Below are positions 32,145 through 56,637 of a stretch of 64,000 bases of DNA, one piece after another. Position 1 is the first letter of the stretch. Each line of letters begins with the position of its first letter. The DNA is from Fimbriiglobus ruber. GTDB lineage: Bacteria; Planctomycetota; Planctomycetia; Gemmatales; Gemmataceae. The translations under genes and the position numbers were made by a program. The notes under the pieces were generated by a model. The model was not told where the DNA came from. It saw nothing but the letters and a program-made list of their open reading frames with translations, and searched no databases. Location of the stretch: the NCBI RefSeq assembly GCF_002197845.1, contig NZ_NIDE01000020.1:295460-359459 (forward strand). The letters run 5' to 3'.

Positions 32145-35100
32145 ATGAGTCAGGGCTTCGACCGGAGTGTCGTCGTCGGCCTGGGCTTGCTCGCCGTCCT
32201 CGTGGTCATGAACGCCGCCATCTCGCACCACAACACCCGCAAGCTCCGGGAGGACGCCGCGCGGGTGGCTCACAGCCGCGAGATCCTGGACGTGTTGAGC
32301 GGGCTCCGCGCGGACGCCCGGAAACTTCAAGTCTCCCAGCGCGGGTTCCTCATCTCCGGGGACGAAAGCCGGCTCCGGTCGTTCAACGAGACGGTCGACG
32401 CGATCCACGCCCAGATCGGCCGCCTGAAAGTCTTGACGGCCGACGATCCCGAACAAACCCGCCGGATCGAGGAACTCGAAGCGGGTCTCCAACACGGCAT
32501 CGCGTGGCTGGTTCAGATGGCCGGCGCCCGGCGGGCGAAGGGGCTCGAGGCCGTGCGTCAGCTCGCCCTGGCCGGCAACGGCCAGAACGTTCTCGACCGG
32601 CTCTGGGATCTCGCCGAGGAGATCGACGGCGAGGAGCGCCGGCTGCTCACCGCCCGGGCCGAAGAAACGGACCGCGCCTACTCGAACGCGGTGCAATTCG
32701 GCGCGGCGTCGGCCCTCTTCGGGCTCCTGGCCGTCGGGGCGTTCGCCTGGTTCCTCCGCCGGAACATGATCGACCGCGACCGCGCGGCGGAAGTCGTCCG
32801 CGAGCAGCGGGAACTTCTACAAGCGACCCTGGTCAGCATCGGCGACGGGGTGATCGCGACGGACGCCGGGGGCCGGATCGTCTTCCTGAACGCCGTGGCC
32901 GAGAAGTTGACCGGGTGGGCGCAAACCGAGGCCCGGGAACAGCCCCTCGAATCCGTTTTCCGGATCGTTGACGAGGCCACCCGAAAGGCCGCCGACAACC
33001 CCGCGGCCCGGGCGCTGAATGAGGGCAAGATCGTCGGCCTGGCGAACCACACGATCCTGATCGCCAGAGACGGGACCGAGTGGCCGCTGGACGACAGCGC
33101 GGCCCCGATCCGGGACGCCCGCGGGGGCGTGGCCGGGGCCGTTCTGGTCTTCCGCGAGATCACGGAAAAGAAGCAAGCCGAGCAGGCACTCCGCGAGCAA
33201 GAGCAGCGGGCGATCGGCATCCTGGAAAGTATCACTGACGGTTTTTTCGCCATCGACCGCCAGTGGCAGTTCAGTTACGTCAACCGGCAGGCCGAACGAC
33301 TTCTCGACCGCGCCCCGGACGACCTCCTCGGGAAGAACCTGTGGGAAACGTACCCCGGGCTCGTCGGGAGCGAGTTTGAACGGGCTTACCGGCGGGCCGC
33401 CGACGATCGGGTACCCGGCACGGTTACCGCGTTCTACCCCGACCACGACCGCTGGTACGAAGTCCAGGTGTACCCGGCCCCGGATGGCATATCGATTTAT
33501 TTTCGCGACGTGACCACCCGCCAGCGGGCGGACGCGGCGCTGGCCCGCGTGACTGCCGAGTCCGAACGGCGGAAGCGCCTGTACGAGACGGCCCTGTCGA
33601 ACACCCCGGACCTGGTGTACGTCTTCGACCTGAACCACCGCTTCACTTACGCGAACGAGGCTCTTCTGCGGCTGTGGGGGCGCACTTGGGACGAGGCCAT
33701 CGGCAAGACTTGCCTGGAACTCGGGTACGAGCCGTGGCACGCGGCCATGCATAACAGGGAGATCGACGAGGTCGCCACCACCAAGCGGCCGATCCGCGGC
33801 GAGGTTCCGTTCACCGGCACGTTGGGCCGGCGGATTTACGACTACATTTTCGTCCCCGTGTTCGGCGAGAACGGCGAGGTCGAGGCGGTGGCCGGCACGA
33901 CCCGGGACGTGACCGAGCGGAAGGAAGCGGAGGAAACGATTCGCCGGAACGAGGTGTTCCTCCGCCAGTTGTTCGAGGGGAGCCTGGACTGCATCAAGGT
34001 GTTCGACCTCGACGGTCGCCTGCTGTCCATGAACGAACAGGGAATGCGAGAGCTGGAAATTACGGATTTCGACGCCGTCCGGGGCTCGGACTGGTGCGGG
34101 TTCTGGCAAGGGGAGACCCGGGAGACGGTCGCCCGGGCGATCGCCGAAGCCCGCTCGGGCGGGGTCACTCGATTCGAGGGCGTTTCCGCGACCCGCACCG
34201 GAAAACTCCGCTGGTGGCACGTGGTCGTCACCCCGATCGGCCCCTCGGAGGACCGCCCGGAACGCATTCTGGCCGTCTCGCGGGACATCACCGACCGCAA
34301 GCAAGTGGAGGTTGCGCTCCGGGAGGCCGACCGGCGGAAGGACGAATTCCTTGCCCTCCTGGCCCACGAGTTGAGGAACCCCCTGGCGCCGCTCCGCAAC
34401 GGCCTCCAGGTCATGCGGTTGGCGGCCGACGACGCGGCCGGTGTCGCCCGGGTGCGGGCCATGATGGACCGCCAACTCGGCCACATGGTCCGGCTCATCG
34501 ACGACTTACTCGACATCTCCCGGATCAACCGCAACAAGCTCCACCTCCAACTCTCCCGCGTCTCCCTCGCGGACGTGGTCGGCGCGGCCGTGGAAACGGC
34601 CCGGCCGGCCATCGACGCGGCCGGGCACGAGTTCGCGATTTCACTCCCCGCCGAGCCGCTATACCTGGAAGCGGACCTCACCCGCCTCGCCCAGGTGTTC
34701 GCGAACCTGCTGACGAACAGCGCCAAGTACACTGAACGAGGCGGCCGTATTACGCTCGCTGCCGAGGTGTGCGGGGCGCAAGTGGTCGTCTCCGTACGCG
34801 ACACCGGGATCGGCATCCCGGCCGAGGCGCTGCCCACGATTTTCGACATGTTTTCCCAGGTCGACCGGAGCATCGAACGGACGACCGGCGGGCTCGGGAT
34901 CGGCCTCGCATTGGTCAAGGGACTGGTCGAGATGCACGGCGGCACGGTGACGGCGGAGAGCGGCGGGTCGGGGAAGGGGACTGTGTTTACCGTTCACCTG
35001 CCGGTGGCGGCTCGCGGCCCCGATCCCGTGTCGAACGGCGGGAACGTGGAAACGGAATCGAGTGCCGGTATGGTCAAGCGGCGGGTGCTGGTCGTCGACG

Positions 35101-35453
35101 ACAACCGGGACTCCGCCACCTCAATGGCCCTCATGCTCGAACTCATGGGCAACGAGGTGCGGACAGCCCACGACGGCCTGGAGGCGGTCGACCGGGCCGG
35201 CGAGTTCCGGCCGGACGTGGTGTTGATGGACGTCGGTATGCCCCGCCTGAACGGCCTCGACGCGACCCGCCGCATCCGCGAACAATCCTGGGGCCAGACC
35301 ATGACGGTGATCGCCCTGACCGGGTGGGGTCAGGAGACAGACCGCCAGCGGTCGGCGGAGGCCGGGTGTAACGGGCACCTGGTGAAGCCGGTGAGCGTGC
35401 CCGATCTGGAAGCGATGCTGGGAAGCGTTCCGCCTAACGGCCCGGCGACATAG
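32145..35453 (+). CDS. Hybrid sensor histidine kinase: CHASE3, PAS repeats, HisKA, HATPase, receiver
   Basis: The 1,102-residue kinase begins with a membrane helix (VVVGLGLLAVLVVMNAAI, about residues 8-25), then a CHASE3-type extracytoplasmic domain (QRGFLISGDESRL) and a second helix near 185-203. Four PAS/PAC units follow between about 220 and 725 (DGVIATDAGGRIVFLN, DGFFAIDRQWQFSYVN, PDLVYVFDLNHRFTYAN, DCIKVFDLDGRLLSMN). The kinase core has the H-box LLAHELRNPLAPL, N-box FANLLTNSAKYT and G-boxes DTGIGIP and GLGIGLALVKG. A receiver domain (VLVVDDNRDSA, DVVLMDVGMPRLNG with the phospho-accepting Asp) ends the protein. ATG at 32145 has GGGAGAG upstream. No response regulator adjoins it. Its output is unknown; the IS630 copy lies in its promoter region. 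Confidence 0.93.
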   Translation: MSQGFDRSVVVGLGLLAVLVVMNAAISHHNTRKLREDAARVAHSREILDVLSGLRADARKLQVSQRGFLISGDESRLRSFNETVDAIHAQIGRLKVLTADDPEQTRRIEELEAGLQHGIAWLVQMAGARRAKGLEAVRQLALAGNGQNVLDRLWDLAEEIDGEERRLLTARAEETDRAYSNAVQFGAASALFGLLAVGAFAWFLRRNMIDRDRAAEVVREQRELLQATLVSIGDGVIATDAGGRIVFLNAVAEKLTGWAQTEAREQPLESVFRIVDEATRKAADNPAARALNEGKIVGLANHTILIARDGTEWPLDDSAAPIRDARGGVAGAVLVFREITEKKQAEQALREQEQRAIGILESITDGFFAIDRQWQFSYVNRQAERLLDRAPDDLLGKNLWETYPGLVGSEFERAYRRAADDRVPGTVTAFYPDHDRWYEVQVYPAPDGISIYFRDVTTRQRADAALARVTAESERRKRLYETALSNTPDLVYVFDLNHRFTYANEALLRLWGRTWDEAIGKTCLELGYEPWHAAMHNREIDEVATTKRPIRGEVPFTGTLGRRIYDYIFVPVFGENGEVEAVAGTTRDVTERKEAEETIRRNEVFLRQLFEGSLDCIKVFDLDGRLLSMNEQGMRELEITDFDAVRGSDWCGFWQGETRETVARAIAEARSGGVTRFEGVSATRTGKLRWWHVVVTPIGPSEDRPERILAVSRDITDRKQVEVALREADRRKDEFLALLAHELRNPLAPLRNGLQVMRLAADDAAGVARVRAMMDRQLGHMVRLIDDLLDISRINRNKLHLQLSRVSLADVVGAAVETARPAIDAAGHEFAISLPAEPLYLEADLTRLAQVFANLLTNSAKYTERGGRITLAAEVCGAQVVVSVRDTGIGIPAEALPTIFDMFSQVDRSIERTTGGLGIGLALVKGLVEMHGGTVTAESGGSGKGTVFTVHLPVAARGPDPVSNGGNVETESSAGMVKRRVLVVDDNRDSATSMALMLELMGNEVRTAHDGLEAVDRAGEFRPDVVLMDVGMPRLNGLDATRRIREQSWGQTMTVIALTGWGQETDRQRSAEAGCNGHLVKPVSVPDLEAMLGSVPPNGPAT

Positions 35454-35644: not shown

Positions 35645-35690
35645 AAACGCCACCGCCCCGGTCACGAGTGACCGGGGCGGTGGCGTTTTG
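35645..35690. terminator. Strong bidirectional hairpin terminator
   Basis: A 21-base perfect stem (35645-35665 with 35668-35688) closes over GA and is followed by TTTT on the plus strand and by an A/T-rich start on the other. It lies between the convergent kinase gene and M50/HlyD operon and should end both transcripts. Confidence 0.85.
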
Positions 35691-35711: not shown

Positions 35712-37952
35712 TCAATAGAGGCCGATGTCCAGTGCTTCGGAGAGTTTGCGTTTGACCCACCACCCGCCGCTGCGCCAGTTGCAGTGGATCTTCACGTGAA
35801 CCAGCGCCCCCGAACTGATCGAGCTGGTCGGGTCGGTGAGTTCGACTTCGACCAGATACACTTGGGCGACGGGGCTCACTTCCTGGCCGCCTTCACCGGA
35901 CTGCTTGACGGCCAGCGGCCCGCCCCCGCGCTGCGTGAGCGGGTACGGCACCTGCTTGGCGTCCGACTCCGGCAGCTTGCGGAGGCGGCCCATGAAAATG
36001 TGGTCGGTCCGGCCGGTCACGTAGACCGATACGGCCAGTTCGCCGCCTTTGGGGAGGTCTTCCTGCAGCAACTTGTAATCCACCGCGCTGACCGGCACCT
36101 TGACGATCAACCGCGTCGGGTCGCCGACTGTGCAGATCGGCTTTTCTTTCACGTAGCCGCGGTCGAACAACTTCCCGATGTCATTTTGCTTCGGGAGCCC
36201 CATCACCACGCCGTCGCGCGGCGCCTTGACGGTGCCAATGCTGCGGATACGCTCTCGGATCTGGTCGACTTCCTTGGAGAACTTCTCGGCCTCCAGGCGG
36301 GCTTCCTCCGACTGGAACCGCGCTTTTTCGCGGTCCGCCGGCTCGCCGACGGACATCTGCTCGACGGACGCGAGCTGGATCGCCCGCTGCTCGTCACGTT
36401 TGGCCTCGGACAGTGCGAGCTGCTCTTGCATCTCGCGGCTGATGAAGTCCGCGATCGGCTGCCCCTTCTTGACCCGCTCGCCTTCCTCGAGGTGCCGCGA
36501 GAGGAGGGACGCGGGGTCCGCGAGCCCGACCGGGTCGCCGTGCTCGGGGTCCACGCTGACCAGGCCGACATCCCGGACCCGGCTGATCGGGAGCGGGAGG
36601 GCGAGAAACGCGGCCACCAGTCCGGCCAGGACGGCGACGGTGGCGTACACACGCTTGGATTTCATGTCCGGCAATCGCCCCCGTTGGCGCAGGTTTTTGA
36701 TGACTTTGTACGCGGGCCAGATGAACATCGACGCGAGCGACACGAGCGCGAGCATCTGGCTGAGGATTTTCAGTTTCGGCCCGAGGAAGTCCGACAGGAA
36801 CCAGATTACGCTGAACGTGACCACCCACCGGTAGATGTAGCTGCCGATCGCGTACGACACGAACAGCAACTTCCGGCCGGGGGCCATGTACGGCTCCGGC
36901 GGGACTTCGATCCCGAGGCACTTTTCCAGGAACAGGTTCGTGATGAACCGGTTGGCCCGGTCCCGCAGGTTCGGGATCTCGAGCCAGTCCGCCATCATGT
37001 AGTAGCCGTCGAACCGCATGAGCGGGTTCGCGTTGAACACGACCGTACTGACCGAGCAGAGCACCATCACCGCCATCGCGATGTTGTTGACCACCGGCAG
37101 GTGCGGGGTGTACCACCAGACGAACGTCGCGATCGCGGCGATCACCAACTCGACGTAGATCCCGGCGAAGCTGATGATGATCCGCTTCCACTTGTCCGCC
37201 ACGGTCCACGCGTCGGTCACGTTCGCGTAGAGGGCGGGCGAGAGGCACATGAGCAAGACGCCCATCTCGTGGCACTCGCCCTTGAACGCCTTACAACTCA
37301 ACCCGTGCCCGAACTCGTGAATGACCTTCACGACCCCGAGGCTGAGCCACATGTACAGGACCGTGTTGATCGCGAAGAATTCCTGGTACCGCGGCATCTT
37401 GTCGTAAAAGGCCTGGAAGTGGACCAGAACCTGTAAGACGGCCGCCAGCATCAGGCCCACGCTGAGCGCGAAGAACCAGTAGGTGAAGATCCACCACAGG
37501 TACCCGTACATCCACCCCAGGAGGCGGTCCGGGTCGAAGACCGGGATCTTCCAGTAGAGGATGTTCGTGACCGCGGCCAGGCGGCGGAGGCGGCGCTGCT
37601 TGGCGCGGCGCTGGAACAGGTGCTTCCCGGCGCCGCCGGTCTCGTGCTGGACCAGGCCGGCCGTCACGAGCTGCCGGGCGAAGCCTTCGAGGTCCTGGAA
37701 TTCCAGCCGGTGCGGGCGGAACTCGTCCTCGAACCGCTTCCGGACGTCCTCCATCGTGTGGCCGCCGTCGAACAAGTGGAAGACGAAGTATTCCTGCTTG
37801 TTGAACCGGTAGTACCGCAGGCAGACGGGATCCTTGACGACGTGGAAGACTTTCCCTTCGTACCGCTGCTCGGTGATCTGGAGGTCCGGCCGGACGCGGA
37901 GCCGCACCTGCTTCCGCCGCTCGGCCGGGTTGTCGAGAAGTCCGCTTTCCAT
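35712..37952 (-). CDS. PqqD-like / M50 site-2-protease-type / HlyD fusion membrane protein
   Basis: The 746-residue protein has three parts. Residues about 15-105 look like a PqqD/RiPP-recognition-type domain (LRVRPDLQITEQRYEG, YFVFHLFDGGHTMEDV). Residues about 130-450 form a polytopic M50 metalloprotease-like core with the zinc motif HEFGH at 212-216 and the second ligand region NPLMRFDGYY; membrane helices surround them. Residues about 480-730 form a HlyD-type adaptor (lipoyl/barrel-sandwich plus coiled coil, LEEGERVKKGQPIADFI, KAPRDGVVMGLPKQNDIGK). The overall layout matches peptide-maturation/export proteins of the YydH type. I chose the ATG at 37952, with GAGAG seven bases before it. It is the last gene of a three-gene operon, 90 bases after the HlyD-WD40 gene. 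Confidence 0.85.
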   Translation of the reverse strand: MESGLLDNPAERRKQVRLRVRPDLQITEQRYEGKVFHVVKDPVCLRYYRFNKQEYFVFHLFDGGHTMEDVRKRFEDEFRPHRLEFQDLEGFARQLVTAGLVQHETGGAGKHLFQRRAKQRRLRRLAAVTNILYWKIPVFDPDRLLGWMYGYLWWIFTYWFFALSVGLMLAAVLQVLVHFQAFYDKMPRYQEFFAINTVLYMWLSLGVVKVIHEFGHGLSCKAFKGECHEMGVLLMCLSPALYANVTDAWTVADKWKRIIISFAGIYVELVIAAIATFVWWYTPHLPVVNNIAMAVMVLCSVSTVVFNANPLMRFDGYYMMADWLEIPNLRDRANRFITNLFLEKCLGIEVPPEPYMAPGRKLLFVSYAIGSYIYRWVVTFSVIWFLSDFLGPKLKILSQMLALVSLASMFIWPAYKVIKNLRQRGRLPDMKSKRVYATVAVLAGLVAAFLALPLPISRVRDVGLVSVDPEHGDPVGLADPASLLSRHLEEGERVKKGQPIADFISREMQEQLALSEAKRDEQRAIQLASVEQMSVGEPADREKARFQSEEARLEAEKFSKEVDQIRERIRSIGTVKAPRDGVVMGLPKQNDIGKLFDRGYVKEKPICTVGDPTRLIVKVPVSAVDYKLLQEDLPKGGELAVSVYVTGRTDHIFMGRLRKLPESDAKQVPYPLTQRGGGPLAVKQSGEGGQEVSPVAQVYLVEVELTDPTSSISSGALVHVKIHCNWRSGGWWVKRKLSEALDIGLY

Positions 37953-37988
37953 CAGAACGCTCTCGGGTGAGATGTGCGGAAAACCACA

Positions 37989-38016
37989 GTGGGCCGGGCG
38001 CAGAGCCCCGGCCCAC
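37989..38016 (-). promoter_or_regulatory. Intercistronic hairpin in the HlyD/M50 operon
   Basis: A 10-base stem (GTGGGCCGGG and its inverse) with an 8-base loop lies between the HlyD-WD40 stop and the M50 start. There is no U tract, so it is more likely an mRNA-stability or processing element than a terminator. Confidence 0.45.
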
Positions 38017-38041
38017 GAGGTCACGAGAAGACGTCTCGCGG

Positions 38042-40315
38042 CTACTTCGCCCCGGGGGCGGGCGGTGCGGCGGTGGGCGGGATGACGAGGCCGCCGGTCG
38101 GCCCCTTCAGCGGTTCGGCGGCGGGGGGGGCGGACGCGATCGGAGCGAGCGCAGCCGGCGGAGTGGTCACGAGGCCCGTGATCGCGACCGCGGGAACCAC
38201 CGGGCCCACGTCCTCGGGTCCGGCCCCCGCGGGGCGGACGTTCGAGACCTGGGGCTTGGCGCCTGCGCCCCCGGCCGGCGCCGGAGCGGCGGGTGGGACC
38301 GCCGCAGCTGCGGCGGGGTTGATGATGATCGTGGCCAAACTGCGGTCTTGCAGCCCGTCGCCGAACTTGTCGATCGGGTTCTGCATTTCGACCCGGACCT
38401 GGACGGACTTCGAGTCGGCCGAGTTGATCGCCACAATTTGACCGGCGATCTGCTTGCCACTCTCGTCCTTGCTGGGGATGGCCCAGAAGTAGACCCCGCC
38501 CTCGTGCGTGCCGACGACGATGAATTGCTTTTCCGCGTCCGGCGAGAAGGCGGCGCAGTTGACGCCCGCCCCCTTCGGTGTGACCAGCCGGCGCCGTTCT
38601 GCCCCGCGGCCGCCCGCGGTCGGGGTTTCCCACAGGGTCATCTCGCCTTTCTGTTCGGTGTCCCCGCCGGCCGTCAGGATGAGCGAATCGTCGGGCGAGA
38701 ACAGGGCCAGCGTCGAGAACCGGGCGCCGCCGCCATGGTTCTGGAGTGTGGCGATCGATTGTTCGTTCACCAGACTGACCACATCCAGGCGACTGGCGTC
38801 TTTATCGAACAACACCCGCGAACCGTCGGTCGAGACGCCAAGGACGTCGACGGAACCACCTCGGTGGTCGATAACAGCTTGCGAAGAGGCGCCGTCCGTC
38901 CCGAGCTTCCAGACGCGGATCGAGCGGTCCCGGGCGGCGGTCACGAGCGTGGCCTGCGGGGTGAACCGGACGTAAGTAACGCCGTCGCGGTGTTCTGATG
39001 GGAGGGCGTACAATTTCTTCTTCCCGGCGACGTCCCAAACGTACACGTCCCGCCCGGCGGCCGTGGCGAGGTACTTGCCGTCCGGGCTGAACGCGGCCGC
39101 GACGACGGCGCCGTCGTGAGCCCCTTCGAGTTCGATGGGCTTGGCCTGGGACAACTTGGCCGGGTCGGTCACGTCCCACAGGCGGACGCGGCCGTCTTCG
39201 CCCGCCGTCGCGACGAAGTGTTGCTTGGCCGTCGGGCTCTGCGTGCAGGCGACCGCGCGGATGGCGACCCCGGCGGCGTGCTGCAGGCGGTGCGACTGGC
39301 GGGTGCCGAACACGTCCCAGACGAGCGCGAGGCCGTCGCCGCCGCCGGACACGATCATCGGCCGGCCCTTGTGGGCGGTCACGGCGACGCTCGACACCTC
39401 GCCGCGGTGGAAGTTCGCCAGCGAGTTCGGGCCGACCGGGCGGGCCGGTTCGACCACGACCGGCATCCCCCGGCGGACGGTTGCCAGGTAGTAAATGTCC
39501 AGCTTTCCTTCGACGCGAACCCGGTCCGTCGCCTGGACTTCGAGGATCGTTTCCCCGGCCTTGGCGTACTCGCGCGGGGACTTCAGCAGCTTGACGACCC
39601 GCCCGTTGAACGGGGAGGTGATCCAGTACCGGCTCAGTTGGGCGCGGGCCGTCCGCAGTTCGCCGTCGGTCTTGGCCTTCTCTTTTTCGTTCGAGATGAC
39701 TTCTGCCCGCAAGCGGGCGACCGTCGCTTCGAGACCGTAGATTTCAAACTGCGAGCCGGCTTTCGTTTCCTTCATCGTGTTCAGTTGCCGAACGTAGGCT
39801 TCGGCGGCGATCTTCTGTTCGACGACCGACCGATCGAGCTGCTTAATGACGTTTTCGCTCTGCTCGATCTGGAGGGCGACGAGCTGCTCGTCCAATCGGC
39901 CCAGTACCTGGTCTTTCTTGATGAGATCGTTTTCGCGGAGCCGGCGGTACGGCAGCTCTTTCTTGAAGTCGCGGGGATGGTACAGGATGTCCGGATCATT
40001 CGGGTCGAATTTCGCGTCCGGCGGTAGCGGTGTGGCGAGCAACTCGATCTGGCCATCAACCTGGGCCGGAATGGCCACACGGATGTCGCTCTGAACGACC
40101 GCAGACGTGATTACGATCGGCTCTTCCGCGGTGACCGCGTCCGGCACCTTCGGCGCCGGGGCCGGCGGGTACAAGGGGTTGCCGATCGGTGCCTGCTTGG
40201 CAGGGGCGGTTGACGAGGCGGCGGTTGACGAACCGGTCGGGTTACACCCAATCGTGGTCAGCGCGGTCGTCCCGCCGACAGCGGCGGCGGCGACCCAATG
40301 GCGGACGCGAATCAT
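38042..40315 (-). CDS. Lipoprotein with HlyD adaptor and WD40 repeats
   Basis: The 757-residue protein has a lipobox-like end to its signal (LTTIGC, Cys about residue 24). Residues about 70-290 are HlyD-like: a first barrel-sandwich half (VVQSDIRVAIPAQVDGQIE), a coiled coil (LDEQLVALQIEQSENVIKQL region), and the second half (ARAQLSRYWITSPFNGRVVKLL). From about 300 to 640 there are WD40-like repeats (MIVSGGGDGLALVWDVFG, FVATAGEDGRVRLWDV, LATAAGRDVYVWDVAG). A further strand segment (QIVAINSADSKSVQVRVEMQNPI, about 640-680) completes the adaptor. The tail is Pro/Ala/Gly-rich. GGAG lies eight bases before the ATG at 40315. A beta-propeller inserted in a periplasmic adaptor is unusual. Confidence 0.85.
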   Translation of the reverse strand: MIRVRHWVAAAAVGGTTALTTIGCNPTGSSTAASSTAPAKQAPIGNPLYPPAPAPKVPDAVTAEEPIVITSAVVQSDIRVAIPAQVDGQIELLATPLPPDAKFDPNDPDILYHPRDFKKELPYRRLRENDLIKKDQVLGRLDEQLVALQIEQSENVIKQLDRSVVEQKIAAEAYVRQLNTMKETKAGSQFEIYGLEATVARLRAEVISNEKEKAKTDGELRTARAQLSRYWITSPFNGRVVKLLKSPREYAKAGETILEVQATDRVRVEGKLDIYYLATVRRGMPVVVEPARPVGPNSLANFHRGEVSSVAVTAHKGRPMIVSGGGDGLALVWDVFGTRQSHRLQHAAGVAIRAVACTQSPTAKQHFVATAGEDGRVRLWDVTDPAKLSQAKPIELEGAHDGAVVAAAFSPDGKYLATAAGRDVYVWDVAGKKKLYALPSEHRDGVTYVRFTPQATLVTAARDRSIRVWKLGTDGASSQAVIDHRGGSVDVLGVSTDGSRVLFDKDASRLDVVSLVNEQSIATLQNHGGGARFSTLALFSPDDSLILTAGGDTEQKGEMTLWETPTAGGRGAERRRLVTPKGAGVNCAAFSPDAEKQFIVVGTHEGGVYFWAIPSKDESGKQIAGQIVAINSADSKSVQVRVEMQNPIDKFGDGLQDRSLATIIINPAAAAAVPPAAPAPAGGAGAKPQVSNVRPAGAGPEDVGPVVPAVAITGLVTTPPAALAPIASAPPAAEPLKGPTGGLVIPPTAAPPAPGAK

Positions 40316-40483
40316 CGTATATTCTCCAGTAAAACGTACTCCCGCGCTCGACGCGCCGGGATGTGGACGGCATAGTGGGCCGCCGGAGGCCGCGGCGGTC
40401 CGCGGTCCGGTCGGTCGGGACGATATGGGTGCGGGCTAAAGTGCGCTCGTCAATCGTGCCGCTACGGTCTGCGACTCTTACTT

Positions 40484-42640
40484 TTAGAAGAAGAACACGA
40501 CCTTCTCGTAGAACCATTCCCAGACGCCGTGGAACAGGGAGTATCCGAGCGGCTGGGGGCCGCAGCGGACGCGAGTCCGGGCCTCGACGCCGGCCTTGCG
40601 GAGTTCGAGCGGGATGCGACGGCCGTCTTCCTGGTCGACACGGACGTATGCCTGCACCACCGGCTCGGATTCGTTGTGGTCGTCCTTGTTCGGGACCGCT
40701 TCGGCGGCCAGGTCTTCCTGGTACAGCCGGCCGGGGTAGCTGGTGTCCGTTTCGCTGGCGAGCAGCACGTCCACGTCGAGGTACTTCTTGCCGTCCTTGT
40801 CTTTGTTATGCATTCCTTCGGTGGCGAGCGCGTGGGCGATGTGGCCGATGTTCCGTTGGGGGATCTTGAGTTCGACCCGCCACGGGCCGTCGACCATCCC
40901 GAGCCGCATCAACGGCTCGTTCGGCTTGACGGTCCGGCCTTTGAGCTGGTCCCGGTTGTCGCTGTTGAGAACGAGGTAATCACCGACCTGGAACGGGATC
41001 GACCGGTCCAGGTCGATCCGCGGAGCGAGGGCGTTGAACTCGCCCGGCTTGCCCGGGACCATGTTGTAAATTTCGGTCAATTGCTTGATGAACGCCCGCT
41101 GCGATTCTACAGTGGCGCTTTCCTTGGCGATTTCGCGACGAAGGTTCAACTCGTCATTGGCCGGAAGCGATTTCTGGGCAAGAACCGTCCTGTACCCATC
41201 AACTTTGCCCTGGGCGGCCATCAACTCGCCGGACGCCTTCATGTACTTTTCTTGGAACGTCGGGCTGAACAGGCTAATGAGTTTTGCGTTCGGTTTAACC
41301 CGGTCGCCAGGCTTGTAAAGGAAGTCGCGGACTTCGCCCTCGGTCGGGGCATACGCCTGAACCACGACTTGCGGCAGGAACTCGCCCTTGGCTTCCACCT
41401 TCAGCGGGTACGGCACCAGCACCATCACGGCAGCGAGGATGGCGACCGCGGCGACGCCCAGAGCGATGTAGAAGCGATTCTTGCCGCCCAGACCTTCTTG
41501 AATCTTGCCGAGCGGCCGCCAGATGAAGCCGAACGGCACCCGCTTCATTTCGGCGGCGTTGTAGAGCGCGCCGGCCGCGTGCTTGGTGACGAGGTCGAGC
41601 TTTTGGATCAGCGGTTCGATCTTTTCCGGCGGGTTGAAGCTTTCCATCAACAGCACGGACCGGGCAGGGCGCCCGTTGTCTTTTTCCCGGTCGTCCCGGA
41701 CGGGGGTCACGACGAGTAGCTTCGGCTGGCTCTCGGACAGGTATTCGTCGAGCGCGTGGGAGACGTCCGGCGGGAGCCCTTCGTCTTTTTCGCCCTTGTA
41801 AACGAGCCGGTCTCCGAACTTGAGAACCGCGTCGAAAAGGTTCTTCATCCGGCGGACGTGCGTACTCGCCTTTTCAACGACGTCGGCCCCGGAGACGGCT
41901 TCGACAGTGACTTTCTTTCCGTGGCGAACGCCGACGCAGAGGCGGTCGCACTCGATGAGCCGGCGGCCTTCGTTGGCGACGTGGTACGCGACTTCGGTGG
42001 GGTTCAGGCTGGAGTGAACCTGCTTGGCGAACGCCTCGACCTGGGCGAAGACTTTCTCTAAACCAGCCGACTGGCGGGCGTTCGAGAACTGGTGGTATTG
42101 CGAGGCGTACCCGGCCATCTGCGTCGTGTACTGCAGAAAGGTCTGGTACATCCGCGGGTCGAGGGCCGGGTCGTGGAACAGCTCGAGCAGCCCGAACGGC
42201 TGCTTCTCCTGGTTCACGATCGGGGCGAAGAGCGTGTAGTAGTCGGTCAGGTTGGCCGCGGGGACAGACCCGGGCTCGGTGTTGGTCACCCCGGTCAGTC
42301 GGCCCTGGGGCTCGACCATGACCGGCCGGGCCGGTGTAGCCTGGAAGACCTGGCGGAGAATTTCGTTGTGGCACTGGCGGCCGCCGCGCTTCGCGTCGAG
42401 GCCGACCTTGTCGAGGTTGAGTTGGCAAGCGATCTGAAGGAAGCCTTGCGGGGTGCGCAGCCAGACGACGCCGGCCGGGGCGTCGATCGCGCCCATCGCG
42501 ATGTTCAAAAACTTTTCGTAAAATTCGGTGGGGGCGAAGCTCGACCCCGCCAGTTTCGAGGCCTCCTCGAAGGCTGAGTCGATTTGGCGACTAAATTTGT
42601 TCTTCGCCGATTGTTCCGGTGCGTTTTCGATCTTACTCAC
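40484..42640 (-). CDS. GAF domain / HlyD adaptor membrane protein
   Basis: The 718-residue protein begins with a cytoplasmic region of about 380 residues containing two GAF-like domains (FYEKFLNIAMGAIDAPAGVVWL and VAYHVANEGRRLIECDRLCVGV as landmarks). One transmembrane helix follows (FYIALGVAAVAILAAVMVLV, about residues 392-411). The rest is a HlyD-type adaptor: VVQAYAPTEGEVRDFLYKPG for the lipoyl half, a coiled coil around 455-540, and a beta-barrel with VGDYLVLNSDN and PWRVELKIPQ. GAGGA stands before the GTG at 42640, which supports the start. It opens a three-gene operon and may sense a cytoplasmic signal or metabolite that controls export across the envelope. Confidence 0.85.
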   Translation of the reverse strand: MSKIENAPEQSAKNKFSRQIDSAFEEASKLAGSSFAPTEFYEKFLNIAMGAIDAPAGVVWLRTPQGFLQIACQLNLDKVGLDAKRGGRQCHNEILRQVFQATPARPVMVEPQGRLTGVTNTEPGSVPAANLTDYYTLFAPIVNQEKQPFGLLELFHDPALDPRMYQTFLQYTTQMAGYASQYHQFSNARQSAGLEKVFAQVEAFAKQVHSSLNPTEVAYHVANEGRRLIECDRLCVGVRHGKKVTVEAVSGADVVEKASTHVRRMKNLFDAVLKFGDRLVYKGEKDEGLPPDVSHALDEYLSESQPKLLVVTPVRDDREKDNGRPARSVLLMESFNPPEKIEPLIQKLDLVTKHAAGALYNAAEMKRVPFGFIWRPLGKIQEGLGGKNRFYIALGVAAVAILAAVMVLVPYPLKVEAKGEFLPQVVVQAYAPTEGEVRDFLYKPGDRVKPNAKLISLFSPTFQEKYMKASGELMAAQGKVDGYRTVLAQKSLPANDELNLRREIAKESATVESQRAFIKQLTEIYNMVPGKPGEFNALAPRIDLDRSIPFQVGDYLVLNSDNRDQLKGRTVKPNEPLMRLGMVDGPWRVELKIPQRNIGHIAHALATEGMHNKDKDGKKYLDVDVLLASETDTSYPGRLYQEDLAAEAVPNKDDHNESEPVVQAYVRVDQEDGRRIPLELRKAGVEARTRVRCGPQPLGYSLFHGVWEWFYEKVVFFF

Positions 42641-43167: not shown

Positions 43168-43521
43168 TTACGAACAGTGCTGGTTTTCCCACGCGAGGAT
43201 TTGGTGCATGAGGTCCGGCGGTTCGATGCGGCAGGTGGGCAGTGGCCAGGCGAACCGTTCGACCGCGGCGAGTTGCACGGCGGTCGCGCGGGTCTTCGGT
43301 TCGCACCAGAGCAGCACGAACCGGGCGATCGCCTTGCCCCGGCGGCAGAGCCGGGACACGAGCGTTTGTGCGTCGTCGTCGGACCGGGCCGCGTCGGCCA
43401 GGAGTTCGGCCCAGTCGACCACCCATTCGACCAGCATCCGTGCCTCTTCATCCCCCAACCCGCGCGTCAGCGAGTCGTCCCGAACGATGCCCCGTATCAA
43501 CGGATCCGTCGCGATCACCAT
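43168..43521 (-). CDS. Small hypothetical protein, soluble
   Basis: This 117-residue protein is not recognised. It has no signal peptide, is helical in appearance and is rich in Leu, Trp, Arg and Asp. GGAGGGG stands four to five bases before the ATG at 43521, which makes translation likely. It has its own terminator downstream and is transcribed away from the Aas-like gene. Confidence 0.6.
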   Translation of the reverse strand: MVIATDPLIRGIVRDDSLTRGLGDEEARMLVEWVVDWAELLADAARSDDDAQTLVSRLCRRGKAIARFVLLWCEPKTRATAVQLAAVERFAWPLPTCRIEPPDLMHQILAWENQHCS

Positions 43522-43874: not shown

Positions 43875-46235
43875 ATGGCCCCGGTCTCGCACGCGGTCCG
43901 CCCGTTGTTCGCAACACAGGCGGACTTCTTGCCCGACCTTTGGCCGCTCGCCGCGGTCGCGGTCGTTCTCGTGTATCTTGTTCTGGCCTGGGTGTTCCCC
44001 GCTTTCCTGCGCCCGCTCTTCTGGCTGGTCGCACACACCCTCTACCGGTTTCACGTTTACCACCCGGGTCGCATTCCCGCGACCGGCCCGGTGCTGTTGG
44101 TCAGCAACCACGTGACCTACCTCGACTGGCTGCTGATCTGGGTCGCGTCGCCGCGGCCGGTGACGTTCGTGTTGTGGGCACAGTTTTATCGGAACCCCTT
44201 TCTGCGCCTGATCTTGTCGTTCGGGCGCGGGCGGGCGATCCCGATCGACAGCTCCGGCAACCGTCCCCGCGCCGTGGTCGACGGCTTGCGGAGGATGTCG
44301 GCCGCGCTCGACGCCGGTCAAGTCGTTTGTGTATTCCCGGAACAAACACTCACGCGAAACGGCCAGATCCTGCCGTTCGGCCGCGGCGTCGAGTGGGTGT
44401 TGAGGAATGCTCGCCAGCCCGTGCCGGTCGTTCCCGTCTTCTTGAACAACCTTTGGGGGTCGATGTGGAGCTGGGCGCGCGGACGAGTGTTTTGGAAACT
44501 GCCGCCCGAGTTCCGCCGGCGGGTCGCGGTTTACTTCGGCCAACCGCTGCCGTCGCCCTGCACGGCAGCCGCGGCCCGCGCCGCGGTTCAGGAGTGTAGC
44601 GCCGCGTGCGGCATCGAGTCCAGCGACTACACGCTGCCGGTGAACCGTCAGTTCGTCCGGTCCGCTGCGCGGTTTCGTAACCTGTTCCGGTGTGCGTTCA
44701 TTGATGTGGCGACGGGAACCGAACGGCAGCTCACCTGGGCGGCCGTACTCGTCGGGGCGTGGTGCCTGAGCCGCTGGTTGCGAACGCGAGTCGGAGCTTC
44801 GCAGAACGTCGGCATTTGGCTCCCGACCGGCGCGGGGTCGGCCCTGGCGAACATTGCACTTAGTTTTCTGGGCAAAACGACCGTCAACCTGAACTACACA
44901 GCCGGCACCGACTCCATCAACTCCGCGATCCGGCAGGCCGGGATCGAGACCGTGATTACGTCCGCGAAGTTTACCGCCCGGATCGCGATCAACTTGCCCG
45001 AAGGCGTCCGCCGCATCGACCTCGAAGACGCCCTCGGCGGAATCTCGAAGGGCGAAAAGTTGCTGCGGATGGCGATGGTCGTACTCTTGCCGGGCTGGGT
45101 ACTCGATCGATTCGTGTTGCGCCTGGGGAAGACGCGACTGGACGACGTCGTGACCATCCTCTTTTCCAGCGGCAGCACCGGCGAGCCGAAGGGCGTCATG
45201 ATGACGTACCGGAACATCTCCACAAACACGGCCGCGTTCATCCACGGCGTCGAGTTGGACGCCGCGGACCGGATGCTGGCTGTGCTTCCGTTCTTTCACT
45301 CCTTCGGGTACACGGTCTGTTTGTGGGCGCCGGCGGCGATCGCGATGGAGGCGGTCTACTTCCCGGACCCCCGCCAGGCGAAGGAACTCGGCGAACTGTG
45401 CCGTAAACACCGCTGCACGATCCTGCTCGGAACGGCCACGTTCCTCCGCTTGTATTTGAAGCGGGCCGGGATCGAAGACTTCCGGTCGTTGCGGCTCCTC
45501 GTGTGCGGGGCGGAGAAACTGCCGGTGGCGCTGGCCGAGGAGTTCCGGGCGAAGTTCGGCGTCCTGCCGCTCGAAGGGTACGGGTGTACGGAATTGTCGC
45601 CGGTGGTGAGCGTGAATCTGCCGGACGTGATCCTCGGCGGCGTCCGCCAGCGGGCGAACTCGCCCGGGACGGTCGGCCAGCCGATCCCGAACGTCTGCGC
45701 GCGGGCGTTCGACCCCGAAACGACTGCCCCACTCGCCCACGGCGAAGAGGGCGTGCTGGGCGTGAAGGGGCCGAACGTCATGCTAGGCTATCTGCACCAA
45801 CCGGAGAAAACGCGGGACGTGGTCCGCGACGGGTGGTACATGACCGGCGACGTGGGCCGGATCGAGGACGACGGGTTCATTCGCATCACCGGCCGGATCA
45901 GCCGGTTCGCGAAGATCGGCGGCGAGATGATCCCGCTCGACCGTCTCGACCAGGAGATGCACGACATTCTGAACACGAACGGCGACCGCGTTCTGGTGGT
46001 AGCCGCGGTTCCGGACGTGAAGCGCGGCGAGCGCGTCGTGGTCCTGCACCTGCCGGACGTGTTCGCCCGACTGGAAAGCGTGTTCGCCCGTCTCCGCGAG
46101 CGGGGCTTGCCGAACCTCTGGATTCCCGACCCGCGGGACTGTTACCCGGTCGACTCGTTCCCCGCGCTGGGTAATGGCAAACTGGACCTCCGCCGCGTCG
46201 GCGAGTTGGCGAAGCAGGCTGCCGGATTAAATTAA
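43875..46235 (+). CDS. Aas-like bifunctional acyltransferase / acyl-ACP synthetase (no MFS domain)
   Basis: The 786-residue protein joins a PlsC-type acyltransferase to an AMP-forming acyl-CoA/ACP ligase. After an N-terminal helix (WPLAAVAVVLVYLVLAWVF, about residues 22-40) the acyltransferase has the catalytic NHVTYLDWL (NHxxxxD), FPEQTLTRNG and a following block. The ligase half has the AMP-binding motif TILFSSGSTGEPKGVMMTYR, GYGCTELSP, GWYMTGDVG and the C-terminal PALGNGKLDLRRV. Aas re-acylates lyso-phospholipids with fatty acids it activates. In some bacteria the two parts follow an MFS-type lysophospholipid flippase (LplT fusion), which is absent here. I chose the ATG at 43875 over an earlier TTG at 43848; the upstream binding site is weak in either case. 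Confidence 0.87.
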   Translation: MAPVSHAVRPLFATQADFLPDLWPLAAVAVVLVYLVLAWVFPAFLRPLFWLVAHTLYRFHVYHPGRIPATGPVLLVSNHVTYLDWLLIWVASPRPVTFVLWAQFYRNPFLRLILSFGRGRAIPIDSSGNRPRAVVDGLRRMSAALDAGQVVCVFPEQTLTRNGQILPFGRGVEWVLRNARQPVPVVPVFLNNLWGSMWSWARGRVFWKLPPEFRRRVAVYFGQPLPSPCTAAAARAAVQECSAACGIESSDYTLPVNRQFVRSAARFRNLFRCAFIDVATGTERQLTWAAVLVGAWCLSRWLRTRVGASQNVGIWLPTGAGSALANIALSFLGKTTVNLNYTAGTDSINSAIRQAGIETVITSAKFTARIAINLPEGVRRIDLEDALGGISKGEKLLRMAMVVLLPGWVLDRFVLRLGKTRLDDVVTILFSSGSTGEPKGVMMTYRNISTNTAAFIHGVELDAADRMLAVLPFFHSFGYTVCLWAPAAIAMEAVYFPDPRQAKELGELCRKHRCTILLGTATFLRLYLKRAGIEDFRSLRLLVCGAEKLPVALAEEFRAKFGVLPLEGYGCTELSPVVSVNLPDVILGGVRQRANSPGTVGQPIPNVCARAFDPETTAPLAHGEEGVLGVKGPNVMLGYLHQPEKTRDVVRDGWYMTGDVGRIEDDGFIRITGRISRFAKIGGEMIPLDRLDQEMHDILNTNGDRVLVVAAVPDVKRGERVVVLHLPDVFARLESVFARLRERGLPNLWIPDPRDCYPVDSFPALGNGKLDLRRVGELAKQAAGLN

Positions 46236-50971: not shown

Positions 50972-52684
50972 TCACCAATCCGAACCGATGACTTCCCCGC
51001 CGTTGCGTGTAATGGCGGCCTTGAGTGTCTCTTTCGAGATCTTCGGGTTCAGGACGCGGACCGAACCGTCGAACATCGCCGCGAGAATGTTGCCGAACGG
51101 TTTGGTCAAGTCCGGGAGTGGTTTTTTGGAGTCGAATTCGATGTCATCCGGTTGCGTCCAGACGACCGGGTCGCCGCCAGCGACTGCCATAATTGTGTTC
51201 GACGTCCCGTCGGGGTAGTCGGTGAATTTATGCTTTTCCTTCCAGTCGAACCCGGCTTCCTTTCCAACGAACACTTTGTAATGCGTCTTGCCCATCTCGA
51301 TCGGGCCGCGGGGGTCGGCATAAATCTTTGGCATCAACGGGATCAATTTCTTGTTGTGTTCACTGTCCCACGGCTCGTCGAGCTTGAACTGATTGTACAG
51401 AGCGGTTTGTTCGATGAACGGCAAGATAGCGACGCGCCAGCTCAGGAGTGGCTTACCGTTCTTATCGGGGATGGCGGCCGCGGGGAAGCCCCCGTAAGTG
51501 TCGTGGTAATTGTGCATCGCGAGGGCGATCTGCTTCATGTTGTTCGTTGATTGGGCCTGGGCCGCCGACCCGCGGACCTTCTGTATGGCCGGCAGTAAGA
51601 GACCGGCCGACACCGCGCTCAGGCCGAAGTAGGCCGTCGCCCAGGGCGGGGCGGTGACTGAGACGGCAAGAGCAGTCCCTTCCCGGGTGACGGGCAGGTC
51701 GGCCAGGATTTCGTCGGCGACGTTCAGCGCCCCCAGAGCGGCGACCGCGGCGACGGCGACCGGGAGATCCTCGATCGGCCGCGGCTTGAGGAGGGGTTGC
51801 TTGGGGTACAGTTGCTTTTCCGCTTCCATCCGCGGTTGGTTGAGGCCCATGCGGGCGAGTTCGGCGGCCTTCCGCAGCGCCTTCTCGGCCGCCGTCGCGT
51901 CGGCTTCGGTCGCGTACACGAGTCTCGCGGCCACGGTCGCCGACTGGGCCAGGTCGAGGGAGACGGTCGCGAATTCGGCCTGGAGCAGCGGCTTGAATTC
52001 CGGCGGCAGGTGTTCGAGTTCGGGCGGGAGCGGCAACTTCTTGGCGTTGACGGCGGCGAACAGAACTTTGCCGGCGGCCTGGCGGATGGCCGCGGTCATG
52101 CTACCGGCTGCCTTGGCGGGGTGCACCAGGAATATCGGCAGGCCCTTCTCGTCCCCGAACACGATCGTCTTGTCGTCCGGAAAGTGAACGGCCAGGTGGT
52201 CCTTGTCGTAGGTGTAATACTCTTTCCCGCCGGACTTCAGCGGCTTGGCGTCCGGCAAGTAGGCTTGCCGCACCGAAGCCGGGTCGAACGCGACGGTGAA
52301 CGTCACGACGCCGACGATGACGGGCTGATTCTGACCCGGTTCCATCGGCAGCGCGATCGCCGTCACCCGGTCGACGGTGGACGGCGGGGGGACGAACTGG
52401 GCGTCAAGCGCGGCCAGGGCCTTCGGCCCGGCCTTGGCGAACATCTGGCGGTACATCTTGACCGACTCGTGCTTCCACACGTCCGCCACCCGGACGTGGG
52501 CGAAGGCAAGGGCGTCGCCCGGTACGAGAGCCAGGTCGGACGGCAGTTCACCGGCCGCGGCCGCCGGGACGGCGGGCGGTTGGGCGCTGACCTGATGGGG
52601 CGACCCGACGGCCACGAGTGCGCAGGCCAAGCCGGCCAGCGCGGCGGGCCTGAGCGATGCAAGAAGCCAACGTGCGGCAGACAT
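50972..52684 (-). CDS. Exported protein with N-terminal unknown domain and DUF1559 module (paralogue 3)
   Basis: The 570-residue protein has a signal peptide (WLLASLRPAALAGLACALVAVGS). A region of about 330 residues of unknown fold follows (LALVPGDALAFAHVRVADVW, FVPPPSTVDRVTAIALP). From about 375 it has a DUF1559 module: LLLPAIQKVR, STNNMKQIALAMHNYHDTYG, LDEPWDSEHNKKLIPLMPKIYADP split over the core, and the end motif MFDGSVRVL. DUF1559 proteins normally start as type IV pseudopilins; here that hydrophobic segment (about 358-378) is internal. It is 80-90% similar by eye to the next paralogue at 52891. I chose the ATG at 52684 because it begins the signal peptide. Confidence 0.82.
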   Translation of the reverse strand: MSAARWLLASLRPAALAGLACALVAVGSPHQVSAQPPAVPAAAAGELPSDLALVPGDALAFAHVRVADVWKHESVKMYRQMFAKAGPKALAALDAQFVPPPSTVDRVTAIALPMEPGQNQPVIVGVVTFTVAFDPASVRQAYLPDAKPLKSGGKEYYTYDKDHLAVHFPDDKTIVFGDEKGLPIFLVHPAKAAGSMTAAIRQAAGKVLFAAVNAKKLPLPPELEHLPPEFKPLLQAEFATVSLDLAQSATVAARLVYATEADATAAEKALRKAAELARMGLNQPRMEAEKQLYPKQPLLKPRPIEDLPVAVAAVAALGALNVADEILADLPVTREGTALAVSVTAPPWATAYFGLSAVSAGLLLPAIQKVRGSAAQAQSTNNMKQIALAMHNYHDTYGGFPAAAIPDKNGKPLLSWRVAILPFIEQTALYNQFKLDEPWDSEHNKKLIPLMPKIYADPRGPIEMGKTHYKVFVGKEAGFDWKEKHKFTDYPDGTSNTIMAVAGGDPVVWTQPDDIEFDSKKPLPDLTKPFGNILAAMFDGSVRVLNPKISKETLKAAITRNGGEVIGSDW

Positions 52685-52822
52685 GAGGAGGACCCCGAGC
52701 GAGTGATGAAGGGAGAGAGAGGGCCGGAGTCGACCAGCCCGGTGCGTTCGTAATTGTAACGACGGCGGGACCGGAGCATTTCGCGAGGTGATCAACGATC
52801 TTCAGCGTTTGTAGAAGCGGAC

Positions 52823-52865
52823 GGCCACCATCGACGTACCCCATGTGGGTACGTCGATGGTGGCC
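52823..52865. terminator. Hairpin with 19-bp perfect stem
   Basis: GGCCACCATCGACGTACCC (52823-52841) is the exact inverse of 52847-52865 around a 5-base loop. It lies between two tandem minus-strand genes, right after the stop of the middle DUF1559 paralogue (52891). No long T tract follows, so termination may be partial or the hairpin may protect the transcript. Confidence 0.5.
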
Positions 52866-52890
52866 ACGCATTGCGGGCACAACCGGCCCG

Positions 52891-54600: not shown

Positions 54601-54708
54601 GAGGAAGACCCCGAGCGAGTGACGAGGGGAGAGAGGGCCGGCGCCGACCGGCCCGGTGCGTTCGTAATTGTAACGACGACCGGGCCGCGGCATCTCGCGG
54701 CGGCCGAA

Positions 54709-56463: not shown

Positions 56464-56637
56464 ACAAGCAACCCCTGGCGGGCAATGTGACACATGAGCC
56501 GGCACTCGAGCCGGCCTTTGCCCGCCACTATAACCGCGGGGGGTTCGGATGTTCTTGAGAAAACCCTCGGAAAATCCGGGCGGTGTCCGGCAAAGAGGGC
56601 TGCCGTAACAGGTGCCCGGGCCGAGTACGGCCGCCTG

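Follow-up and report, generated by a model that had tools for sequence, protein, structure and literature searches.

A three-gene HlyD, M50 and GAF locus of Fimbriiglobus ruber, probably part of an exporter for large leader-bearing surface proteins

What does a bacterium do with three HlyD-type adaptors encoded side by side, when no gene for an ABC transporter, an RND pump or an outer-membrane channel lies nearby? The question is raised by three genes on the minus strand of a 64,000-nucleotide stretch of the Fimbriiglobus ruber genome (the window; part of a 12.4-Mb genome, G000, contig C20). We call them G1 (40484-42640; 718 amino acids (aa), GTG start), G2 (38042-40315; 757 aa) and G3 (35712-37952; 746 aa, ATG start). 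G1 joins tandem GAF domains to a transmembrane (TM) helix and a HlyD-type adaptor, G2 is a HlyD-type adaptor with an inserted WD40 propeller and possibly a lipoprotein, and G3 joins a domain like PqqD, or like the recognition elements (RREs) of ribosomally synthesised and post-translationally modified peptides (RiPPs), to an M50 protease and a HlyD region. An earlier, sequence-only reading of this DNA had described three same-strand genes with these domains, and they are indeed present; its remark on the missing transporter and channel genes holds for the eight neighbours that were scanned with Pfam and an unmatched open reading frame (ORF) of 117 aa, a set smaller than all ORFs of the window.

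We propose, with a probability of roughly three in four, that G1-G3 make up that part of a SecA-driven exporter which lies in the membrane and the periplasm; devoid of an ABC transporter, the exporter would serve large surface proteins with an LExLExR-type leader. The components, their conservation together and their location beside leader genes can be read directly from sequence. Gene neighbourhood, which supports the link to these substrates well, suggests that the cargo consists of very large surface proteins with a short shared N-terminal leader. Genomes are referred to below by three-digit handles (G039 and the like) and loci by L numbers.

Conservation of the locus and its candidate cargo

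The gene order of the putative operon, whose lack of conservation would have counted against the sequence-only reading, is conserved in other planctomycetes. In the window's family G3 has matches in 85 of 95 genomes, among them 63 of the 66 good ones, often in one copy and sometimes in two or three; G1 has them in 83 of the 95 (again 63 of the 66). Best-match identities across the family are 45-72% for G3 and 37-67% for G1, which speaks against chance frames. By hand count 80 family genomes have both, and the best pair lies on one contig in 66 of them; the remaining 14, with G3 and G1 on separate contigs, are mostly fragmented assemblies. One same-family G3 copy (G032:C206:7140-9374) contains a single in-frame TAA, and a second G3 copy lies on contig C135 of the same genome. 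Over the phylum sample, G3 was found in 171 of 393 genomes at E<=1e-10.

Forty planctomycete G3 loci, hand-picked for spread, were fetched and analysed with an ORF caller and similarity clusters. A G1-type gene adjoins G3 in 38 of them (not in L053 and L056) and a G2-type gene in 36 (not in L046, L057, L063 and L066; G3 itself was split by the caller in L057). The WD40 propeller of G2 is found in all nine same-family loci and in none of the 31 others. A SecA-like protein of 628-683 aa is present in 6/40 loci (one member confirmed by Pfam), and a DUF3467-like protein lies next to G3 in another count of 6/40, plus a distant one in L039 (two members confirmed by Pfam). Giant ORFs are recurrent neighbours of G3, and those that adjoin the module, or stand at a distance of two small ORFs from it, in L036, L051, L062, L063, L066 and L071 begin with LExLExR-type motifs. 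This leader, "LExLEPRxLL", has entries both in Pfam (PF07595, Planc_extracel) and in NCBIfam (NF012209, LEPR-XLL).

The same association is found, often in a more compact form, outside the phylum, where near full-length G3 homologues occur on plasmid records of Alphaproteobacteria. The Pontibrevibacter cassette consists of a LEPR-XLL giant, DUF3467, HlyD, a PqqD-family M50, a SecA-like protein and HlyD; that of Thalassospira of a LEPR-XLL giant, DUF3467, HlyD, M50, HlyD and TolC; and that of Methylosinus of a LamG giant, DUF3467, HlyD, a PqqD-family M50, a SecA-like protein, HlyD and TolC. Pseudosulfitobacter has a LEPR-XLL giant, HlyD, M50, SapC, a SecA-like protein and HlyD, and Alisedimentitalea a giant, HlyD, M50 and SecA (the ABC genes annotated near this last cassette are a peptide-import set). 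The four cassette genes annotated as helicase, prepilin peptidase or SecA all match SecA queries at 5e-159 or better, and the translated start of the giant carries the motif in four of the five cassettes. The suggestion of the sequence-only reading that the genes export something or build an envelope complex thus finds its backing in the gene neighbourhoods of other bacteria. A further plasmid, NZ_CP081687 of E. coli (L078 and L183), carries a related cassette with a giant Ig-like protein with a divergent start (LESRQLFDGA), TolC, two HlyD proteins and an M50-HlyD protein; the M50 gene of this cassette type occurs in 24 of 5,426 E. coli genomes, and 21 of its 25 places are on plasmids.

To this we add 80 non-planctomycete loci, the best 80 of 586 confirmed stretches, picked by G3 alone (from a Thalassospira-headed alignment) and read with flanks of 10 kb, many of them on cut contigs. 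Judged by their titles they belong mainly to Pseudomonadota and Desulfobacterota-type bacteria, with single cases from Nitrospira, Omnitrophota and Rokubacteria. Anywhere in these loci, a G1-like gene was found in 79, SecA in 73, a G2-like gene in 51, DUF3467 in 28, a SapC-like gene in 18 and TolC in 10. When the 78 loci with a called G3 ORF are considered, G1 lies at most two ORFs upstream in 77, SecA at most two ORFs downstream in 73 (directly next to G3 in 62) and G2 at most four ORFs downstream in 45. A SapC-family gene recurs in cassettes, for instance in L075, L081, L098, L117, L127, L129, L156 and L157.

The motif was sought in the large proteins of these loci. It is present in 11 of the 16 unlabelled ORFs of at least 1000 aa with a visible start; the remaining five, judged by eye, resemble common enzymes (helicases in three cases, otherwise a glutamate synthase and a glucanotransferase). 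In loci L032-L158 the strict motif gave 18 matches among 1565 open segments of at least 350 aa, against 0.2 expected when the first 150 residues are shuffled. Sixteen of these are leader-like; the exceptions are the match in L064 and the first of a pair in L156, where the pattern first caught a neighbouring stretch that is followed by the LEPR-type motif. NF012209 scored above its cut-off in all four non-planctomycete giants scanned (L086, L093, L115 and L157) and in all 11 module genomes searched (1 to 3 matches each).

Since these loci were reached through G3, the search was also run in reverse, with NF012209 against 295 genomes drawn from the family to which G477, the source of locus L098, belongs. 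The raw yield was 36 matches in 28 genomes; G477, G482, G484 and G485, which had been reached through the module (9 matches), were dropped, which left 27 matches in 24 genomes. Flanks extended up to about 14.5 kb past both frame ends where the contig allowed, and an M50 gene was called from tblastn at more than 80 bits. Such a gene lies in the flanks of 18 of the 27 leader genes or, if those lacking a usable flank downstream are set aside, of 18 out of 22; both are raw counts. SecA is present as well in 17 of the 18 (not in G623; in G751 at 72 bits). G552 and G685, perhaps overlapping module records, were kept because the draw was independent of the module; without them the count is 17/25. At E<=0.001, NF012209 matched none of 14 control genomes.

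The genome of the window itself contains the candidate parts of such a machine, but they are scattered. Two SecA genes are present, of which one lies within a frame of 1304 residues and the other is short, 689 aa as called (C2:134746). The short one matches the SecA DEAD, P-loop and preprotein-binding models, as do the cassette SecA of L076 and two further short ones; for the wing/scaffold model no match was listed on these four short SecAs, which were scanned without a housekeeping SecA alongside. One DUF3467 gene and 33 OEP matches lie away from the operon. The absence of a channel gene beside G1-G3 is explained in this way, since SecA, and sometimes TolC, which stand in the loci of relatives, are here elsewhere in the genome. 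As for cargo, a DNA pattern that encodes LExLExR with P as the third residue after the R has six matches in this genome and none when reversed. Five of the six are close to the beginning of their frames, which span 1364, 1905, 1176, 775 and 1059 residues, whereas the frame of the sixth has 69 residues; FG-GAP repeats are found in all five of these long proteins and PKD domains in one.

Predicted folds and a possible mode of action

Which part of the locus might read the leader? An AlphaFold2 model of G3 (55-row alignment; mean predicted local distance difference test score (pLDDT) 89.7, predicted template modelling score (pTM) 0.76) places a winged-helix domain of RRE/PqqD type at aa 16-106 (37635-37907). 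In VIA-align, which takes a second look at Foldseek's own matches, this region resembles TbiB1 with its leader peptide in two entries (5v1v: Z 11.5, 87 residues, 2.9 A; 5v1u: Z 11.5, 83 residues, 2.6 A) and the B1 protein of a lasso peptide, likewise with leader (6jx3: Z 10.8, 84 residues, 2.5 A). The Pfam PqqD model gives only 0.02 on a relative and no match on the G3 of the window. The N-terminal region of G3 is thus predicted to fold like leader-bound RiPP recognition elements, in agreement with the PqqD-like domain that had been named from sequence.

The region that follows matches Peptidase_M50 (PF02163) at 2.5e-8, with 34.0 bits against a cut-off of 27.2. It contains the zinc motif HEFGH (aa 212-216; 37305-37319) and, further on, NPLMRFDGYY (aa 309-318; 36999-37028), with the probable third zinc-ligand Asp, so that the M50 (site-2) protease signature, HExxH plus a distal Asp motif, appears complete. 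H212, E213, H216, N309, P310, L311 and D315 are invariant in 55/55 aligned sequences, and D315 is presumably a zinc ligand, as in the M50/S2P family. The M50 fold is not among the VIA-align matches listed for G3, whose rows are filled by adaptor domains, and we do not take this as absence. Predicted fold and conserved zinc-site residues together back the idea, put forward by the sequence-only reading, of a PqqD-like reader fused to an M50 protease. The start of G3 was set at 37952, not 38633, because relatives align from the ATG at 37952, in a family alignment for which the 746-aa form was the query. A 973-aa protein from 38633 was rejected: its first 227 codons overlap G2, and family matches begin at or just after ATG 37952.

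These two domains bring to mind a RiPP-type system, in which a small peptide would be matured and exported as by the daptide or YydH/LiaK M50 proteases. The fold of the PqqD-like domain, which is that of leader-bound RREs, speaks in its favour, and G3 does match the daptide_HExxH model (155.9 bits) and the LiaK model (41.4 bits); however, both scores are under the curated cut-offs (300 and 225, respectively), and no small precursor ORF is conserved around the operon, apart from the 117-aa protein of unassigned family. The 56 small ORFs examined there are parts or opposite strands of known genes, with this one conserved protein in addition. Moreover, cassettes elsewhere adjoin giant leader genes. 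We therefore consider a RiPP-type system very unlikely. Of the peptide or protein that the sequence-only reading expected to be matured, the small peptide found no conserved candidate other than the 117-aa protein, and large proteins with an LExR leader appear as the likely clients. The search that it proposed for a conserved precursor peptide or TolC-like gene nearby brought to light the 117-aa protein at the operon of the window, and TolC in some loci of relatives.

The leader itself bears on a second alternative. Twenty-nine leader-like starts were collected by means of a relaxed pattern in which the R is obligatory, as is E or Q at the second position before it; E stands at this position in 28 of the 29. 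In the 27 leaders with enough residues ahead of the motif, the highest mean hydropathy over 12 residues of that stretch is 1.21. The leaders of L061 and L097, and one of two from L166, are doubtful members of the set. The leader is basic and lacks a hydrophobic signal-peptide core. This matters for the hypothesis that the LExR proteins cross the inner membrane in another manner (for example by Sec) and that G1-G3 form a maturation or anchoring complex that cuts the leader and fixes the proteins in the envelope. The invariant M50 zinc residues fit such a role, as do the lack of a linked SecA or channel gene in the window and the short SecAs, which have no wing/scaffold match and may not translocate alone. 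Yet leaders without a Sec-like hydrophobic core are not what this hypothesis leads one to expect, and three HlyD-type adaptors, with TolC in some cassettes, point to a conduit across the envelope. We regard a maturation or anchoring complex as improbable, if less so than a RiPP-type system.

The adaptor region of G3 (aa 454-735; 35748-36593) has as its best match, over aa ~454-735, the MacAB-TolC entry 9qgy, chain G (Z 15.0, 232 residues, root-mean-square deviation (rmsd) 5.8), and the top Foldseek rows for G1 and G3 are adaptors of the MacA/AcrA/MexA type. In G1 (39-row alignment, mean pLDDT 90.3, pTM 0.48) the adaptor region predicted by fold covers aa 410-697 (40550-41413) and is preceded by a predicted TM helix (aa 387-408; 41417-41482), a helix of the model that falls on a hydrophobic stretch. 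G2 shows a HlyD/RND_mfp-like stretch (aa 125-289; 39449-39943) that matches TIGR01730, the RND efflux adaptor family, at 1.9e-16 with 60.0 bits; Pfam gives HlyD_3 at 5e-8 and WD40 (PF00400) at 9.3e-29, the latter for the propeller at aa 301-623 (38447-39415). The N-terminus of G2 (...LTTIGC) is compatible with a lipobox, as judged by eye.

Could the locus then be a regulated assembly for the efflux of small molecules or metals, with the WD40 and GAF parts as sensors? The resemblance of the HlyD regions to the MacA, AcrA, MexA and ZneB adaptors would suit this, as would the TIGR01730 similarity, although the NCBIfam adaptor-family scores are under the curated cut-offs (for TIGR01730, G2 at 60.0 and G3 at 42.5 bits against 94.9). 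No ABC, RND or MFS pump was seen among the scanned neighbours, nor do the annotated plasmid loci have one within their cassettes, and the association with leader genes would be left unexplained. Efflux is, in our opinion, the least likely of the explanations considered.

The N-terminal part of G1 clearly carries tandem GAF domains by predicted fold. The first (aa 37-156; 42173-42532) is seen in the model, and the second (aa 214-334; 41639-42001) in the model and in Pfam, where it scores 0.0018 (aa 214-318), under the cut-off. Taken together, aa 17-376 resemble the GAF pair of PDE5A (3lfv: Z 18.9 over 308 residues, rmsd 10.3); matches to single GAF domains are within 2-3 A. That this pair senses a signal, as the sequence-only reading had supposed, is plausible.

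From these parts we infer how the exporter may work. Leader recognition would fall to the RRE/PqqD-like domain of G3, which would bind the leader in the cytoplasm; the short secondary SecA would drive the unfolded chain across the membrane, with either the M50 protein or SecYEG as the site of passage; and the HlyD regions of G1, G2 and G3 would form a mixed adaptor ring that leads to a TolC-type channel. The M50 site would cleave the leader, perhaps just past the LL(S/A)A step after the motif, and the GAF pair of G1 would gate export. In the window's family one machine might serve many substrates encoded elsewhere; in other phyla the cassette would often stand beside its own giant gene.

Points against the exporter, and its relation to known systems

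A number of observations weigh against the exporter proposed here, beginning with the window. A six-frame scan of it found no leader gene, and neither SecA nor TolC adjoins G1-G3; because none of the three adjoins, the tie of this operon to leader substrates lies in homology and genome content. In a SecA tree (midpoint root, one housekeeping SecA), the short SecA of this genome does not group with the cassette SecAs. Among the cassettes, that of Thalassospira has no SecA, none was seen in the E. coli plasmid stretch read, and the Alisedimentitalea giant has no motif at its annotated start. The planctomycete giants are themselves poorly recognised by the leader families: with NCBIfam, of those in L036, L051, L062 and L063, that of L063 alone matched LEPR-8K (12.5 bits, cut-off 17), and a Pfam scan found no PF07595 in those of L036, L062 and L063.

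The reverse search has its exceptions too, since an M50 gene is absent from the fetched flanks of 9 of the 27 leader genes. Five of these had no usable downstream flank (G494, both G718 matches, G576 and G685), and four lack the gene despite such a flank (G616, G496, G756 and G517, the last two being the weakest motif matches). At the looser threshold of E<=0.05, one of the 14 controls (Deinobacterium chartae) had an NF012209 match above the cut-off, and PF07595 at E<=0.1 matched 2/14 control genomes, neither above its cut-off.

Inheritance across genomes gives evidence on both sides. With thresholds that were set after seeing the tables (G3 at E<1e-80, SecA query at E<1e-131), 88 of 99 class genomes have both a strong G3 and the accessory SecA, two have G3 alone (G112 and G262, the latter with motif matches), none has SecA alone and nine have neither. 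Three of these nine have no G3 match, and in six the match is weak (1e-53 to 1e-64). At E<0.05, PF07595 is found in 74 of the 90 strong-G3 class genomes, against 0/9 of the others, which leaves 16 of the 90 without a motif match. Family f15 shows a SecA match of 3.0e-104 to 3.5e-142 in all 23 G3-positive genomes, and of 9.0e-53 to 2.7e-56 at best in the nine G3-negative ones (0/9 of accessory type; Fisher 3.6e-8), and outside the class the motif at E<=0.01 occurs in 17/75 G3-positive versus 8/219 G3-negative genomes (3.4e-6; hand counts), but these p-values are too small because the genomes are related and not independent. The eight G3-negative genomes with a motif match are further exceptions, as are G039 and G057, members of the window's family that have a short SecA and no G3 or G1 match. 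Among the matches listed (35 of 36 genomes) for PF07595 above its cut-off, G3 is present in 34, G188 having the motif without G3.

Part of what we describe has been seen before. Kamneva, Poudel and Ward described in 2015 a locus of secondary SecA_DEAD, HlyD, Peptidase_M50 and GAF genes, and proposed, in the accessible part of their text, that SecA is the ATPase and M50 the membrane pore; they called the broader role of the locus completely unknown and gave no substrate there, and noted that in some genomes its parts are scattered (PMC4452313). Methylobacterium extorquens AM1 is one of the bacteria with the locus according to the same paper. The likeness to the present locus lies in the GAF-HlyD, M50-HlyD and HlyD (biotin-lipoyl) genes found together, which in their case come with a secondary SecA and sometimes OEP; the difference is that the SecA_DEAD protein of the window's genome is unlinked and that G2 has a WD40 propeller. 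We therefore consider the operon of the window a split variant and not the full locus, since SecA is elsewhere and the 2015 paper itself reports scattered cases. As far as its accessible main text goes, that paper has no mention of PF07595, "giant" or DUF3467, and no PqqD/RRE domain was seen in it (PMC4452313).

The leader, too, has a history. T. immobilis is a member of the window's family. It has 52 proteins with a similar motif, including 8 of its 10 longest, according to the accessible part of PMC8567305, where the motif on planctomycete surface proteins is said to have been called an export signal since 2004 (Studholme 2004, as cited there). PF07595 and NF012209 (LEPR-XLL) describe the same leader on the candidate substrates, and their descriptions cover the signal and not a machine. 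Among the publications covered, which mostly exclude subscription papers and include accessible parts of PMC10868602, PMC8567305, PMC1569441, PMC10885120 and PMC4452313, we found none that joins the leader to the SecA/HlyD/M50 locus. What is new here is the proposed cargo and the leader-reading domain; the core locus and the leader have each been described before.

The proposed exporter may be compared with two better known systems. Substrates of type I secretion carry a C-terminal signal. Like type I secretion (HlyB-HlyD-TolC), the exporter would have HlyD-type adaptors, a TolC-type channel in some cassettes and, probably, giant surface cargo; unlike it, no ABC transporter was seen (none of the HlyB type among the scanned neighbours of the window), the leader is N-terminal, and a SecA-like ATPase and an M50 protein stand in place of the transporter. 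With the RiPP leader handling of the daptide MpaP and of YydH/LiaK/EpeP, as presented in the accessible part of PMC10885120, it shares an M50 membrane protease and an RRE-like domain as the proposed leader reader, but G3 is below the family cut-offs, is fused to HlyD, and has candidate clients of hundreds to thousands of residues.

We lean, by a small measure, towards the view that this is a separate class of secretion system, RRE-guided, SecA-driven and ABC-less, with a ring of three adaptors for giant LExR-leader proteins, which would be a general surface route in most Planctomycetia and exist as dedicated cassettes (some on plasmids) in several phyla. Two loose ends would thereby be joined, a surface-protein export signal for which the publications covered name no exporter and a SecA/HlyD/M50 locus without a known cargo. 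If this is true, the binding of the leader, its cleavage and the display of proteins on the surface can be put to a direct test, and an RRE-like reader known from small RiPPs would serve proteins whose frames exceed 10,000 residues.

Transcription signals and surroundings of the operon

The intergenic gaps are 168 nt between G1 and G2 and 89 nt between G2 and G3. A terminator-like hairpin lies between G2 and G3 (38016-37989); over the region, 10 terminator-like sites were seen, against 7.9 expected by shuffling, and a promoter scan of the region gave nothing above shuffled sequence. A perfect 18-base inverted repeat at about 35648-35685, 3' of G3, faces a convergent hybrid histidine kinase (32145-35453) and is perhaps a shared terminator.

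The eight neighbours scanned with Pfam comprise an AMP-binding/acyltransferase protein, a molybdopterin oxidoreductase, a hybrid kinase, two transposases, and DUF748, DUF1501 and DUF1559 proteins. The 117-aa ORF (43168-43521, minus strand), 5' of G1, is kept in five fetched same-family loci (identity up to 67%), has no Pfam match and could belong to the operon in the window's family. A divergent AMP-binding/acyltransferase fusion is encoded at 43875-46235 (plus strand), and a cluster of ORFs similar to it in size stands beside the module in several same-family loci. Finally, three similar ORFs of about 600 aa lie in tandem at 50972-56505 (minus strand), the first of which matches SBP_bac_10/DUF1559.

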